A DNA stretch of 13,947 nucleotides from Candidatus Peregrinibacteria bacterium. Its GTDB lineage: Bacteria; Patescibacteriota; Gracilibacteria; Peribacterales; Peribacteraceae. Of this stretch, positions 2,514-5,078 are shown in pieces; within the stretch, counting starts at the first letter, position 1; each line of letters opens with the position of its first letter. A program made the position numbers and the translations under genes. The stretch is taken from positions 1-13,947 of the forward strand of contig DAOWDW010000060.1 in assembly GCA_030638845.1 (NCBI GenBank), given 5' to 3'. The notes beneath the pieces are model-generated. The model saw only the letters and a program-made list of their open reading frames with translations, made no database searches and had not been told where the DNA came from.

Positions 2514-3314
2514 ATGAATAACTTCCTAATCGTTGCCAATTTTAAAATGAATCCTGCCCCAGAAGGGTGGTGTAATGCTGGTAGTCCATATCTACCAAGA
2601 AATTCTGTAGATGTCGTCGTTTTTCCTTCGCTACCAGATATTGAACACAGTGTCAGAGCAAAGCTAAATACTGGAGCACAATATGGTAGAGCAGAAGATA
2701 AAGGTGCTTTTACAGGGGATATTAGTATGAATATGATTAATAAACTTGGTTGTAAGTATGTTATATGCGGGCATTCAGAACGCAGACAATATCATGGTGA
2801 AACAGATGAAGATGTCGCGGCTCAAGTAATGTCAGCAATTGAACATAATCTTCATCCCATAATTTGCATAGGTGAAACTGTCGAAGAAAGAAATGCTGGA
2901 CAGGCTAAAGAAGTAATTACACGTCAACTAGAAGCTATCAGCAAGCTCCAAGCTCCAAGCTCCAAGCTCCCTCTCGGCCATGAGCTCGAGGCCGAATGGC
3001 AAGCTCATAGTTTTTCTATTGCGTATGAGCCGGTATGGGCCATAGGTACTGGGGAGACCGCAACACCAGAAATGGCACAAGAAATGCATGCTTTTATTCG
3101 AGAAAAATTCTGTATTCTATTTAGCTTGAGCGAAGCCGAAGGGCATTCTGCATTCTGCATTTTATACGGTGGTTCTATGAACCCAGAAAATGCAGCTGAT
3201 TTGTTGTCTCAACCAGACATAAATGGGGGGCTCATAGGGGGTGCATCACTGGTTCCATCATCATTTTCTGAAATTATCGAGATTGCAGGAAATTTGCAGA
3301 GAAACGCAGAATAG
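2514..3314 (+). CDS. tpiA: Triosephosphate isomerase with two repeat-derived insertions
   Basis: Interconverts dihydroxyacetone phosphate and glyceraldehyde 3-phosphate in the cytosol (glycolysis and gluconeogenesis). The protein has 266 residues against about 250 for the family. Visible hallmarks are NFKMN with catalytic Lys11, CGHSERR with His87, AYEPVWAIGTGET with catalytic Glu172 and the mobile loop 6, YGGSMN (218-223) and GGLIGGASL (238-246). All active-site residues are present, so the enzyme is probably functional. It is longer because two loops carry repeat DNA: residues about 144-166 before strand 6, and about 199-214 before strand 7. Both are helix-to-strand loops on the face of the barrel away from the active site. 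The start at 2514 gives the usual short lead to strand 1; no Shine-Dalgarno is visible. It stands alone between repeat-rich gaps, divergent from the left-hand gene. Confidence 0.97.
   Translation: MNNFLIVANFKMNPAPEGWCNAGSPYLPRNSVDVVVFPSLPDIEHSVRAKLNTGAQYGRAEDKGAFTGDISMNMINKLGCKYVICGHSERRQYHGETDEDVAAQVMSAIEHNLHPIICIGETVEERNAGQAKEVITRQLEAISKLQAPSSKLPLGHELEAEWQAHSFSIAYEPVWAIGTGETATPEMAQEMHAFIREKFCILFSLSEAEGHSAFCILYGGSMNPENAADLLSQPDINGGLIGGASLVPSSFSEIIEIAGNLQRNAE
2943..3006. repeat. In-frame heptamer array plus palindrome inside tpiA (insertion 1)
   Basis: Four tandem copies of AAGCTCC (2943-2970), six spacer bases, then a 24-bp palindromic segment (2977-3000) with GCCAT/ATGGC ends and an inner GAGCTC, then AAGCTC again (3001-3006). 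The palindrome has the same frame (CCATGAGCT...CGAATGG) as the one at 2423-2445. It encodes about 21 residues of tpiA that the E. coli enzyme lacks or has in a shorter loop. Confidence 0.75.
3107..3158. repeat. In-frame heptamers around a TTGAGCGAAGCCGAA core inside tpiA (insertion 2)
   Basis: Two heptamers (ATTCTGT, ATTCTAT) at 3107-3120, a 24-bp core at 3121-3144 containing TTGAGCGAAGCCGAAGGGC, and two heptamers ATTCTGC at 3145-3158. The 14+24+14 layout mirrors insertion 1: short tandem units on both sides of a TGAGC...CGAA core. The right-hand heptamers encode the beginning of barrel strand 7 (HSAFCIL before YGGS). Confidence 0.65.
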
Positions 3315-3330
3315 ATGCGAAAATAGGAGC

Positions 3331-3347
3331 GTGAGCATAAGGCTCAT
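3331..3347. repeat. TGAGCCTNAGGCTCA palindrome, copy 2 (degenerate)
   Basis: GTGAGCATAAGGCTCAT begins 17 nt after the tpiA stop codon. One arm has diverged from the 6301 and 5109 copies. It may cap the 3' end of the tpiA mRNA, but no T-run follows, so intrinsic termination is not supported. Confidence 0.5.
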
Positions 3348-3355
3348 AAGAGAAT

Positions 3356-3391
3356 GAAGCAACATATTGAATAAAACAATGAAGCAATAAA
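3356..3391. repeat. Octamer-type repeat array
   Basis: The reverse complement reads TATTGCTT-CATTGTTT-TATTCAAT-ATGTTGCTTC, close to the outer parts of both composite repeat arms (2454-2487 and 4985-5014). This is a third dispersed copy of that module, without the 28-bp palindrome. Confidence 0.6.
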
Positions 3392-3409
3392 TATCTGATT
3401 TTCTTTAGG

Positions 3410-3465
3410 ATATTTTCCTAATTTTTAGGAAATATAGTTGACTTGGAGGTGTACATTCGTATACC
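3410..3465 (+). promoter_or_regulatory. Inverted repeat and putative promoter
   Basis: An AT-rich inverted repeat (3410-3421 with 3425-3435; TTTTCCTAA against TTAGGAAA, one bulge) lies directly upstream of TTGACT (3438-3443). A 16-nt spacer and TATACC (3460-3465) follow. This could transcribe the truncated gene at 3474 and, through it, the DUF559 gene. The inverted repeat is placed like an operator, but that role is inferred. Confidence 0.4.
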
Positions 3466-3473
3466 ATAAAAAT

Positions 3474-3560
3474 ATGTATGACTTGGAAGAAAGAACAGGG
3501 AAATTTGGAGACAATATCATTGAAAAAAGCAGTATCATTTTCAATAAAAATTTAAACATA
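3474..3560 (+). pseudogene. Truncated four-helix-bundle (S23-like) protein remnant
   Basis: The frame from ATG 3474 reads MYDLEERTGKFGDNIIE, which I recognise as the usual N-terminus of the four-helix-bundle family named after 23S rRNA intervening-sequence proteins. Family members run to roughly 115-130 residues with a helix carrying GANYxEA. Here the match fades after about 17 residues and the frame runs straight into the G-rich inverted repeat at 3563. No remainder of the family is visible after that element (4043-4194). It is therefore a 5' fragment, and the DUF559 unit or an earlier deletion removed the rest. Confidence 0.5.
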
Positions 3561-3562
3561 TT

Positions 3563-4042
3563 CCCTCTCCCGTGGGGAGAGGGACAGGGAGAGGGGACAG
3601 CAATTTTATGTCTTATTTTTCTTCCTCCATCATGCTGAATAATAAAGAATGCACCAGCTACGATCCAAAGACATCATTTGCACGCGAGTTACGAGTAAGA
3701 CAAACATCAGGGGAAAAATCTCTTTGGGGAAAGCTTCGTGCAAAAAGATTTCATGACCTTAAATTTAGAAGACAAGTACCTATAGGACCTTTTATTGTTG
3801 ATTTCTTATGTATAGAGAAGAAATTGATAATAGAAGTTGATGGTTGGACACACGGAGAACTTGGTGCAAAGGAATATGATAATATGAGAGAGAATTATCT
3901 TAAAAAACAAGGATTTGTTGTTTTTCGCATAAGTAATAGTCTAGCTAAAGATGATACAAGTATTGCTATTGAGAAACTTAGGTGTGTGCTTGGCTATCCC
4001 ACAGAATAGCCCCTCTCCTCTTTCCTCTCCCCTCGGGAGAGG
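3563..4042 (+). mobile_element. Putative 480-bp DUF559 element with terminal inverted repeats
   Basis: Left repeat 3563-3596: stem CCCTCTCCC-GTG-GGGAGAGGG, followed by ACAGGGAGAGGGG. Right repeat 4010-4042: its reverse complement begins CCTCTCCC-GAG-GGGAGAGG and ends GAGGAGAGGGG. Aligned by eye, 28 of 33 positions agree between 3564-3596 and the reverse complement of 4010-4042. Each end is itself a hairpin with a 3-nt loop. The only gene inside begins 12 nt after the left repeat, and its stop codon (4007-4009) touches the right repeat. I see no clear target duplication at the outer edges. Calling it mobile is inference from this architecture. Confidence 0.55.
3608..4009 (+). CDS. DUF559 (Vsr-like, PD-(D/E)xK fold) endonuclease-domain protein
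   Basis: A small protein of 133 residues, almost entirely one DUF559 domain, the family related to very-short-patch repair endonucleases. Visible motifs are TSGEKSLWGKLR (33-44, Glu36 in the first helix), FRRQVPIGPFIVDFLC (53-68, Asp65), LIIEVDGWTH (73-82, Glu76 and Asp78) and R94 with GFVVFRISN (102-110). The acidic residues are those expected for metal-dependent DNA cleavage, so the domain looks intact, though the substrate of these stand-alone proteins is not known to me. The start is uncertain: ATG 3608 is used here, and ATG 3632 would remove eight Ser-rich residues. A longer in-frame start at 3572 would translate the inverted repeat and is unlikely. The gene is enclosed by inverted palindromic repeats, which suggests it moves with them or acts on them. 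Confidence 0.85.
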   Translation: MSYFSSSIMLNNKECTSYDPKTSFARELRVRQTSGEKSLWGKLRAKRFHDLKFRRQVPIGPFIVDFLCIEKKLIIEVDGWTHGELGAKEYDNMRENYLKKQGFVVFRISNSLAKDDTSIAIEKLRCVLGYPTE

Positions 4043-4091
4043 AAGTAGTCTATATATTGTCTTCTAATGATTGATACTGCGAATTGCTGAG

Positions 4092-4119
4092 AATTTTCTC
4101 CGACTAATTTTCTCCTGAC
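4092..4119. repeat. Short direct repeat, two units of 14 bp
   Basis: AATTTTCTCCGACT (4092-4105) is followed at once by AATTTTCTCCTGAC (4106-4119). It lies in the 152-bp gap between the DUF559 unit and the slipin gene. No function is apparent. Confidence 0.4.
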
Positions 4120-4142
4120 CCTATTATTTCATTGTTTTATTG

Positions 4143-4189
4143 TTTACACTGAGCTTGTTTACACTGAGTGTAATTGAAGTGTCGAAGTG
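4143..4189. repeat. Split CACTGAGCTTG/TCGAAGTG palindrome with nested copy
   Basis: CACTGAGCTTG (4147-4157) and TCGAAGTG (4182-4189) would join into the palindrome CACTGAGCTTGTCGAAGTG. A 24-nt segment (4158-4181) sits between them and begins with a second TTTACACTGAG, so one copy seems to lie within another. The sequence just before is again TATTGTTT. It ends five bases from the slipin stop codon. Confidence 0.55.
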
Positions 4190-4194
4190 CTTCA

Positions 4195-4950
4195 TTACTT
4201 CATTTTCCCCAACCCTTCCATTGCCTTAAGTGCTTCTATCGGAAGCATCCAAATAGTTGTATTGCTTTGGTCGGAGCTTAGGTCATTTATACTCTGTAGA
4301 GTCCTTAAATGAAGGGCTCCATTTTGCTGAGATAAAGTTTGTGCTGCCTTTGCCATGTTAGATGCAGCTGCTACTTCTCCTTCGGAATTGATAATAACTG
4401 CTTGTTTTTCACGCTGGGCTTCTGCAACTTTGGCGATAGTCCTTTTTAGGCTATCTGGAAGAATAATATCTTTAAGCTCAAGACTTTGTACGTCTATTCC
4501 CCAAGGGTCAGATGCCGAATCTACGCTTTTCTTAATTCTATCACCTACCTCCGTCTTTTTTGCGAGTAATTCGTCTAAGGTTACTTCTCCTACTGCATTA
4601 CGCATGGTGGTTTGTGCAAGCTGAGAAACAGCGTAAAAGTAGTTTTCTACTTCCAATACAGATTTCATTGCATCTATAATGCGAAAATACAGCACAGCAT
4701 TTATACGAATAGGAATGTTATCCTTCGTAATTGCCTCTTGGTCTGGTACATCTACTGCTTTAACGCGAATATCCACTTTCATAAGTCTCTGGAATACTGG
4801 AATTACTATTTTCCAACCAGGTTCCCATGTTGCTTGGTATTTTCCCATTAAAAGCACTATTCCACGTTCATATTGGTTAATTTGTCGTATTATAAGTGGT
4901 AAAACAAAAACAATTGGCCAACCGAAGGCTAAAATTGCAAAGAGCTCCAT
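4195..4950 (-). CDS. Slipin / stomatin-like SPFH-domain membrane protein
   Basis: A 251-residue bacterial slipin. The N-terminal hydrophobic segment (about 3-21) would sit in the membrane as a hairpin or single span; the SPFH domain follows. Typical slipin motifs are visible: YERGIVLLMGKY (27-38), PGWKIVIPVFQRLMKVDIR (44-62), QEAITKDNIPIRINAVLYFR (71-90), QTTMRNAVGEVTLDELL (113-129), DPWGIDV (148-154) and AEAQREKQAVIINSEGE (176-192), which starts the coiled coil. Slipins form oligomeric rings or cages in membrane microdomains and often pair with an NfeD-like protease partner, but no nfeD is adjacent here. An upstream in-frame TTG at 5007 would add 19 residues encoded by repeat DNA. The ATG at 4950 is preferred because MELFAILAF gives a normal slipin N-terminus and a TATACT box lies between the two. 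Confidence 0.92.
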   Translation of the reverse strand: MELFAILAFGWPIVFVLPLIIRQINQYERGIVLLMGKYQATWEPGWKIVIPVFQRLMKVDIRVKAVDVPDQEAITKDNIPIRINAVLYFRIIDAMKSVLEVENYFYAVSQLAQTTMRNAVGEVTLDELLAKKTEVGDRIKKSVDSASDPWGIDVQSLELKDIILPDSLKRTIAKVAEAQREKQAVIINSEGEVAAASNMAKAAQTLSQQNGALHLRTLQSINDLSSDQSNTTIWMLPIEALKAMEGLGKMK

Positions 4951-4974
4951 AATAGAAGGGGGAAATACAGATGA

Positions 4975-4980
4975 AGTATA
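4975..4980 (-). promoter_or_regulatory. Possible -10 box of the slipin gene
   Basis: TATACT on the minus strand, 24 nt upstream of the chosen ATG. It lies just inside the edge of composite repeat arm B, so a -35 region, if any, is supplied by the repeat (T-rich, no clear TTGACA). Weak support. Confidence 0.3.
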
Positions 4981-4984
4981 GATC

Positions 4985-5078
4985 AAGCAACACATTGAAT
5001 AAAGCAATGCGTTAATAAAGCAATACGCAAGCGATTAACACAGTAGAGGCGCAAAATTTTGTGCCTCTACCTTCATTG
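4985..5078. repeat. Composite inverted repeat, arm B
   Basis: Counterpart of 2362-2487 in opposite orientation. The 58 bp at 5021-5078 differ from arm A by one base. Octamer-like sequence (4985-5020) continues directly into this core without the palindrome and extra octamer found in arm A. Further octamer-like DNA (CATTGATTTTATT and similar) continues to about 5104. The two arms enclose about 2.5 kb. Confidence 0.85.
5043..5070. repeat. 28-bp palindrome, second copy (one mismatch)
   Basis: GTAGAGGCGC-AAAATTTT-GTGCCTCTAC. It differs from the perfect copy at 2370-2397 by one base, which breaks one pair of the dyad. Confidence 0.8.

Follow-up and report, generated by a model that had tools for sequence, protein, structure and literature searches.

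Intrastrand triplex repeats in bacteria were described by Holder et al. 2015 (PMC4666352) as the PIT/TM_ECO pattern CCCTCNCCC-N3-6-GGGNGAGGG-N3-GGGNGAGGG, with a linker of TTA or CCG. In the passages of that paper concerned with these repeats, TM_ECO is counted at 23 copies in E. coli MG1655, five inverted pairs among them, and at 3610 copies across 262 genomes, with no function assigned. The same passages report the triplex as stable in vitro as DNA, give no support for it in vivo, and tie TM_ECO to genome instability while stating that mobility activities were never found nearby. DUF559 is absent from the text of that paper. In the REP/REPIN systems with a RAYT enzyme, as described in part of PMC3116915, one gene lies between palindromes that are also dispersed as singlets and inverted doublets.

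The DUF559 (YcjD) family has been approached from a different side. YcjD was linked to Vsr in 2005 in a passage of PMC1189080, a DUF559 gene is assigned to the EDxHD family in a section of PMC9403480, and the Caulobacter DUF559 protein VsrA is described as responsible for the SOS response when the cytosine methyltransferase is absent. In the passages on VsrA the string "palindrom" has 0 occurrences and repeats go unmentioned. A literature search that had most subscription journals and bioRxiv outside its scope returned no paper joining DUF559, COG2852 or ycjD with triplex repeats.

A DUF559 gene between inverted repeats

The window is the whole 13,947-nucleotide stretch of Candidatus Peregrinibacteria DNA that was analysed, and the assembly holding it has 807,646 bases in 115 contigs with a completeness of 76. 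The original prediction described a DUF559 gene enclosed by 33-base inverted repeats, each end a hairpin, with the stop codon touching the right repeat, and the sequence bears this out (Table 1). Segments 3564-3596 and 4010-4042 agree at 28/33 positions, a repeat search lengthened them to 38 nt at 82% identity, and the listed open reading frame at 3572-4009 matches PF04480 in Pfam with E=3.1e-31. Folded as single-stranded DNA, the left end reaches -10.6 kcal/mol (z -3.6 against shuffles) and the right end -9.8 kcal/mol (z -2.4), and the stop codon occupies 4007-4009, adjoining the right unit at 4010. A gene fragment had also been thought to end at the left repeat; no open reading frame of at least 80 amino acids ends there, as tpi stops at 3314 and is followed by ~250 bp without such a frame.

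Table 1. Features of the 3563-4042 unit and its neighbours in the window
Feature	Position	Strand	Details
Left triplex unit	3563..3595	+	Y arm 3563-3571 CCCTCTCCC; loop 3572-3574 GTG; R arm 3575-3583 GGGAGAGGG; linker 3584-3586 ACA; third strand 3587-3595 GGGAGAGGG, mirror of R arm
Right triplex unit, inverted	4010..4042	-	Y arm 4042-4035; loop 4034-4032; R arm 4031-4024; linker 4023-4019 AAAGA and third strand 4018-4010 GGAGAGGGG (- strand reading), mirror of GGGAGAGG
DUF559 / EDxHD-like nuclease gene	3608..4009	+	PF04480; 10 invariant columns; model pLDDT 89; predicted fold matches 3hrl and 3r3p
tpi (triosephosphate isomerase)	2514..3314	+	Name from its sequence; left neighbour of insertion
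band7/SPFH-like gene	4195..5007	-	Presumed name, from sequence; right neighbour

Each end carries a stem with a 3-nt loop (3563-3583 and 4042-4024), as in the PIT/TM_ECO pattern. The left unit, with 9/9 triads and the linker ACA, fits the published pattern and has its third strand on the gene side and its hairpin on the outer side; the right unit, whose third strand likewise faces the gene, has 8/8 triads and a 5-nt linker, which lies outside the 3-nt rule. The triplex finder returned nearly the same intervals, 3563-3594 and 4012-4043. Judged by sequence, the window's repeats are of the known PIT/TM_ECO kind: both have a Y stem, a loop, an R stem, a linker (3 nt in the published motif and in the left unit) and a third purine strand, and, in the passages of the published description, the known repeats are likewise intergenic and sometimes in inverted pairs. 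They differ in that the published repeats were linked to no gene or enzyme, whereas the repeats here form the ends of a nuclease gene unit, and in that the stems here vary between elements. Because the listed start codon, GTG 3572, forms the hairpin loop, translation probably begins at ATG 3608 or further on, and the "PLPxGEGxGEG" N-termini of other DUF559 genes could likewise reflect a start called through the repeat.

Solitary palindromes did not turn up in this assembly, where the exact palindrome CCTCTCCCN0-14GGGAGAGG occurs in just these two places in 807,646 bases (reversed-pattern control 0). A second DUF559 match, a partial domain in a 55-aa open frame, lies on contig C103, and no unit was seen in the surrounding stretch that was read. 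Other repeats also populate the window. The band7 gene is bracketed by inverted GAATAAAACAATGAAGCAATAAA-like copies (3354-3391, 4122-4145, 4982-5019), which may have caused a separate inversion of band7; TGAGCCTNAGGCTCA-like palindromes occur at 2272, 3321, 5099 and 6291; a 28-bp palindrome, GTAGAGGCGCAAAATTTTGCGCCTCTAC, has two copies 96% alike at 2370-2397 and 5043-5070; and the tpi frame contains repeat-like stretches at ~2935-3020 and ~3105-3165 (SKLQAPSSKLPL; LSEAEGHSAFCIL) that resemble short insertions.

The window's protein is predicted to have a nuclease fold resembling the EDxHD homing endonucleases and Vsr. Ten residues are invariant in 71 aligned sequences (R29, E36, W40, F53, Q56, E76, D78, G79, H82 and D91, counted from ATG 3608), and we take E76, D78, H82 and D91 to match the EDxHD residue layout. 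The structure model (pLDDT 89, pTM 0.78) finds its best match in 3hrl (6e-8), the solved putative endonuclease NGO0050 of N. gonorrhoeae, followed by the homing endonuclease I-Bth0305I (3r3p, E 1.1e-3). Vsr (1cw0) follows at E 0.045 and probability 0.99, amid mitochondrial-ribosome proteins and a 5hmC restriction enzyme. A profile search gave 3hrl at 7e-37 and I-Bth0305I at 5.7e-6, with nothing else at 0.001. On this modelling, the fold and the E-D-H-D residues of the EDxHD homing endonucleases appear to be present in the protein.

Likeness to I-Bth0305I, in structure, in profile and in the invariant E, D, H and D, does not extend to the genetic setting. No intron or intein was seen, with four Rfam matches up to E 1 that each lie far under their gathering scores and no intron family over 3300-4300; instead, the DUF559 gene is free-standing between triplex repeats and its copies sit at different sites. 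The unit does not look like a typical homing gene. Vsr and Caulobacter VsrA have a related fold, the substrate of Vsr being T:G mismatches. The family of ycjD and NGO0050 is the same, and triplex units lie near both ycjD and a gonococcal DUF559 gene, although those of ycjD are downstream only. Classical IS elements and MITEs also have inverted ends, whereas the sole inner gene here is DUF559, not a DDE transposase, and no duplication was seen by eye.

Triplex units at DUF559 loci

DUF559 genes had been expected to be flanked by palindromes beyond this locus, and the proposal withstood this test, the enrichment being strong. In Patescibacteria, a unit lies beside 127/135 DUF559 loci compared to 9/196 shifted positions, and on both sides of 103 loci compared to 1; the other 8/135 loci have no unit. 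In the plasmid collection, 16/16 DUF559 loci examined have a unit compared to 4/48 shifted positions, with units on both sides in 5 compared to 1. These counts cover up to 260 bp upstream or up to 330 bp downstream, with one finder throughout and loci L002 and L007 dropped. The permissive finder was devised after linker hairpins had been noticed, and its controls were run at the same settings; a stricter finder without linker hairpins places units at 93/135 and 4/16 loci. Inverted flank similarity of at least 36 was found at 75/137 DUF559 loci and at 2/570 other open reading frames of the same loci, whose windows were placed slightly differently. The plasmid-collection loci come from Alpha-, Beta- and Gammaproteobacteria, Deinococcus and cyanobacteria, including two E. 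coli and two Azospirillum brasilense records. In that collection 42/72,556 records match the window's protein in a single-query search, which is insensitive; 17 places were fetched for spread and 16 counted, H1 being left out as it lies inside a gene of ~1620 codons. The association of units with DUF559 across several phyla is well supported. Phage-borne spread was considered and rejected, as a similarly insensitive single-query search matched the protein in 2/50,697 phage records.

In a purine-motif (reverse Hoogsteen) triplex the third strand lies antiparallel to the purine strand, G pairing with G.C and A or T with A.T, and because of this orientation it must mirror the purine arm. In the flanks of 137 DUF559 loci (140 domain matches minus 3 identical copies, among the matches listed; 16 listed places were left out, 15 of them with the lowest scores), a pyrimidine/purine hairpin is present on 233/274 element sides, and the purine "tail" after the hairpin often mirrors the purine arm instead of complementing it. 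In the 224 distinct units whose arm is followed by 40 nt or more, the mirror match exceeds that of shuffled arms (200 shuffles) with z 18.9 over 22 nt and 21.3 over 45 nt. A direct repeat of the R arm also exceeds shuffles, by a smaller margin (z 8.7 and 7.9), an effect of the near-symmetry of many arms; as a substitute for the mirror it was rejected, since in 218 asymmetric arms the mirror is better in 131 and the direct repeat in 31, with 56 ties.

The geometry of the third strand is also regular. There are 161 good mirror matches, of which 93 begin exactly 3 nt past the arm, and TTA is the most frequent linker. At a fixed, unfitted offset of 3, a stem G stands opposite G in 66% of cases and a stem A opposite A or T in 65%, compared to 38-51% and 34-45% at seven other offsets. 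In the 137 units whose tail starts G-rich, agreement at positions 2-8 is 0.806 compared to 0.534 when shuffled (z 15.2), and a stem A is opposite A 133 times, T 128, G 61 and C 12. Stems are almost wholly purine/pyrimidine, with the third strand present. Long linkers that close into a small hairpin of their own occur in 59/298 units near the gene (the finder requires this closure of long linkers), and such a hairpin would hold the third strand beside the stem. The permissive finder gives 298 mirror and 228 direct units in Patescibacteria, and 29 and 30 in the plasmid-collection loci; as the direct version does equally well in the latter (15/16), the mirror rule rests on Patescibacteria. There it is well supported that the ends obey the triplex rule, the folding itself being predicted.

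Several variants of the ends were observed. In two loci on Deinococcus and Azospirillum plasmids (L213, L211) the third strand points outward, a layout unlike that of the window's ends, and the Deinococcus unit of this group has an extra inverted repeat, GCCAGCGTTGCTG, beyond the third strand. Units at L090 and L106 end in GCAGTT...AACTGC outside the hairpins, and like hexamers border some other hairpins.

Copies, empty sites and dispersed repeats

The two ends of an element resemble each other more than they resemble other ends: the median similarity is 37 for own ends and drops to 21 between elements within one genome (260 pairs) and to 19 between genomes (18364 pairs). Among loci with an open frame of <230 codons, end similarity also follows nuclease similarity, both between different host families (r=0.249, compared to a maximum of 0.076 in 500 permutations) and within the same genome (Spearman 0.47, n=121). 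This tracking could have been left by a nuclease that reads its own ends, and co-inheritance as one unit gives the same pattern.

Direct comparisons show gene and repeats behaving as one unit in the pairs examined, as had been proposed. Four same-genome pairs (in G135, G207, G267 and G259) and one pair between genomes (G237/G053) share the hairpin-gene-hairpin segment within unrelated flanks, at 70-83% identity over 462-533 bp, with edges at or within ~30 nt of the units. These five pairs were selected from 60 listed alignments, and in others, such as L110/L116, the flanks match as well, which is what inheritance would produce. A single empty site emerged: opposite the unit of genome G354 (L083, three triplex units plus the gene), 489 bases separate the flank matches in the query and 2 in the target genome, G140. 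No repeat is present at this empty site; its right match, 120 bp long, lies at a contig end and continues in another contig. A third genome, G328, has 243 bp of other DNA there. The corresponding comparison for the unit at L038 gave no empty site. No target-site duplication was seen by eye in the five unit pairs or at the G140 site. The unit character of gene plus ends is well supported. Apart from these pairs, one locus (L099, G251:C13:33253 and 33818) has two equal-score DUF559 matches at a distance of 565 bp and seems to carry a tandemly duplicated unit.

At the window's own site, tpi adjoins band7 without DUF559 in 7 relatives, with both genes on one strand, in the order tpi-band7 in six and reversed in G106; in the window the two genes are on opposite strands. 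Band7 was found in 24/40 genomes including the window's, and in the rest no tpi turned up within 1.5 kb. The tpi-band7 intergenic stretches of 6/7 relatives show no unit by eye. Another unit, in Sphingomonas, lies between two pnt subunit genes, and the pnt matches of other records, among the matches listed and by span only, cover ~0.9-1.3 kb compared to 1.5 kb.

Beyond the loci themselves, palindromes are dispersed across the family's genomes, although in the window's incomplete assembly they are flanking only. The pattern CCYCYCCN1-14GGRGRGG was counted in 379 genomes together with a reversed-polarity control. In the 72 genomes with a DUF559 match at E<1e-20 the median is 16 (total 1980, control 146), compared to 0 in the 278 genomes without DUF559 (total 323, control 116; p=2e-35, with host relatedness not removed); the 29 genomes with weaker matches also have a median of 0 (total 134, control 14). 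The two classes overlap, as 8/72 strong-DUF559 genomes have <3 palindromes, and at least 5 occur in 12 genomes without DUF559 and 4 with weak matches. In G183 (338 kb), 71 units include 11 non-overlapping tail-out pairs, 8 of them with a 15-nt spacer, compared to 2 tail-in pairs; 6 more tail-out pairs overlap and represent one hairpin read on both strands. In genome G140, a ~95-bp insert, itself palindromic, splits a DUF559 gene mid-gene (L279/L285, contig C22), and the genome keeps 12 palindromes.

These dispersed singlets and inverted doublets, the latter with near-constant spacing in G183, together with a single palindrome-flanked gene, are what the family shares with REP/RAYT systems. The unit differs in its enzyme, an EDxHD-like nuclease (PF04480) and not the Y1 HuH transposase TnpA-REP, and in its stem feet, as GTAG (2) and CGTC (6) are not enriched within 8 nt 5' of 233 stems (~4.6 expected); the GTAG at 4045-4048 in the window lies on the 3' side of the right hairpin. 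A Y1-family match was found in 16/30 genomes tested and was absent from 14/30, including G354, G328, G159, G259, G135 and G010, which have DUF559 and 157 to 43 palindromes. The DUF559 unit would work like REP/RAYT and is not a member, having no Y1 enzyme and no tag, and the earlier comparison with REP/RAYT, with a different enzyme, was apt.

Units also occur where no intact DUF559 gene was found. At the palindromes opened in 11 of the 12 palindrome-rich genomes without a first-search DUF559 match (1-2 places each), a triplex unit is present in eight (G022, G038, G061, G086, G088, G129, G145 and G234, with G061 and G088 at 1/2 places) and absent in G072, G085 and G314. A more sensitive family-profile search gave no DUF559 match in G038, G086, G088, G129, G145 and G234, and weak broken matches with no intact gene in G022 and G061; for these genomes one has to suppose that the gene was lost, that the assembly is incomplete or that a different enzyme is at work. 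The weak DUF559-like matches in G022 and G068 were not counted as remnants of the system because the strict finder placed no unit in their flanks.

Judged by its protein sequence, E. coli ycjD belongs to the window's nuclease family. A ycjD query (sapF-fabI interval) matches 3365/5426 complete E. coli genomes, 3362 of them over at least 80% of the query. TM_ECO-type units lie downstream of ycjD only, and the upstream hairpin is not of the triplex type; triplex units also lie near a gonococcal DUF559 gene (L212). In 60 of 5393 matching records, sampled in even steps, 37 with ycjD have a median of 18 places like the TM-bearing query (12-27) and 23 without it a median of 11 (1-18), a difference (p=1e-9; 4e-9 with the ycjD place itself removed) that is confounded with lineage. 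Two O157:H7 records have 12 places without ycjD. According to part of the Eef paper, ycjD is distributed in phylogroups A, B1 and C with ST69 and ST182. The locus was rejected as a clean empty site, as the ycjD-minus genomes that were opened hold a TetR-efflux operon there (compare the same part of the Eef paper). In E. coli ETEC6 (L221), the ycjD gene holds an IS1 insertion.

Explanations and significance

We consider it somewhat better than an even chance that 3563-4042 is a minimal mobile element, a DUF559 EDxHD/Vsr-type nuclease gene between inverted triplex-forming ends. From the evidence above we infer nuclease cutting and mobility as follows. When single-stranded, the ends would fold into purine-motif intrastrand DNA triplexes; the nuclease would recognise its own ends by their folded triplex, probably while the DNA is briefly single-stranded, and would cut at the triplex foot; and the freed or copied unit would be joined elsewhere by host repair. 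No covalent intermediate is known for EDxHD/Vsr-type enzymes, which would therefore depend on the host for this joining step. The same enzyme would also mobilise dispersed singlets and inverted doublets in trans as non-autonomous copies, much as RAYT is proposed to move REPINs. The broader reading, that DUF559 is the missing mobilising enzyme of bacterial intrastrand-triplex repeats, E. coli K-12 included, with the folded triplex as its recognition signal, is advanced more tentatively, at slightly under even chances.

The best surviving alternative, though an unlikely one, is homing, in which the nuclease cuts a pre-existing solitary repeat, the gene is copied into the break via matching repeats, and the repeats themselves spread otherwise. 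The nearest characterised fold is that of the homing endonuclease I-Bth0305I, and solitary repeats are abundant as potential targets; however, the G140 empty site has no repeat, nor do 6/7 tpi-band7 stretches show a unit by eye. A shade less probable still is that another enzyme (RAYT or one not yet named) moves the repeats and DUF559 genes are merely captured. Triplex units in 8/11 palindrome-rich genomes without a DUF559 match and some Y1-family match in 16/30 genomes are in keeping with such capture, but 14/30 genomes lack Y1, six of these being repeat-rich with DUF559, which rules out RAYT as the mover in at least those six. Nor would ends that track the nuclease sequence across host families, or comparably matching flanks in just 2/570 other open reading frames, be expected of captured genes. 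For the proposed link between DUF559 and the palindromes, then, the enrichment, the unit pairs and the empty site stand in favour and the units in 8/11 genomes without a DUF559 match stand against, with the protein as mover a matter of inference.

It is improbable that DUF559 is a Vsr-like protein with a host role in repair or defence, as proposed for Caulobacter VsrA, the repeats being recombination hot spots or protective sites. The SOS response attributed to the Caulobacter protein in the absence of the cytosine methyltransferase, in the passages concerned, and partial resemblance to nucleases of defence systems (a weak match at 0.0023 for the window's protein, up to 4.5e-10 for that of L083) speak for such a role; yet it does not account for the match between inverted ends, for copies that stop at the repeats or for dispersed doublets, and DUF559 is patchy, with profile-search matches in 101/379 genomes. 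Least probable is a role of the hairpins as transcription terminators or as RNA controls of the DUF559 gene, for although there is one weak terminator-like match (left hairpin, - strand) and the palindromes of G072 and G085 look terminator-like by eye, that 1 match compares with 0.7 expected by shuffling, no Rfam family comes near its gathering score, and a covarying third strand and presence at both ends are not terminator features.

Beyond the original prediction, the repeat is an intrastrand-triplex motif, its stem varies per element and follows the nuclease, and ycjD is a relative. The components are each known, and the literature search above gave no paper that brings them together. As the pairing of gene and repeats recurs at most of the related genes examined, the DUF559 family is a strong candidate for the spreader of long-unexplained repeats in bacteria, E. 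coli included. If the mobile-element reading is true, it would give a function to a protein family named for "unknown function" and a natural biological role to intrastrand DNA triplexes; it would mean that the REP/RAYT way of life arose more than once and would be a further route, beside RAYT/REP and classical transposases, for spreading short palindromic DNA. If the nuclease is indeed the cognate enzyme of these repeats, a single gene and one 35-base oligonucleotide would suffice to test the spread of TM_ECO directly in E. coli K-12.
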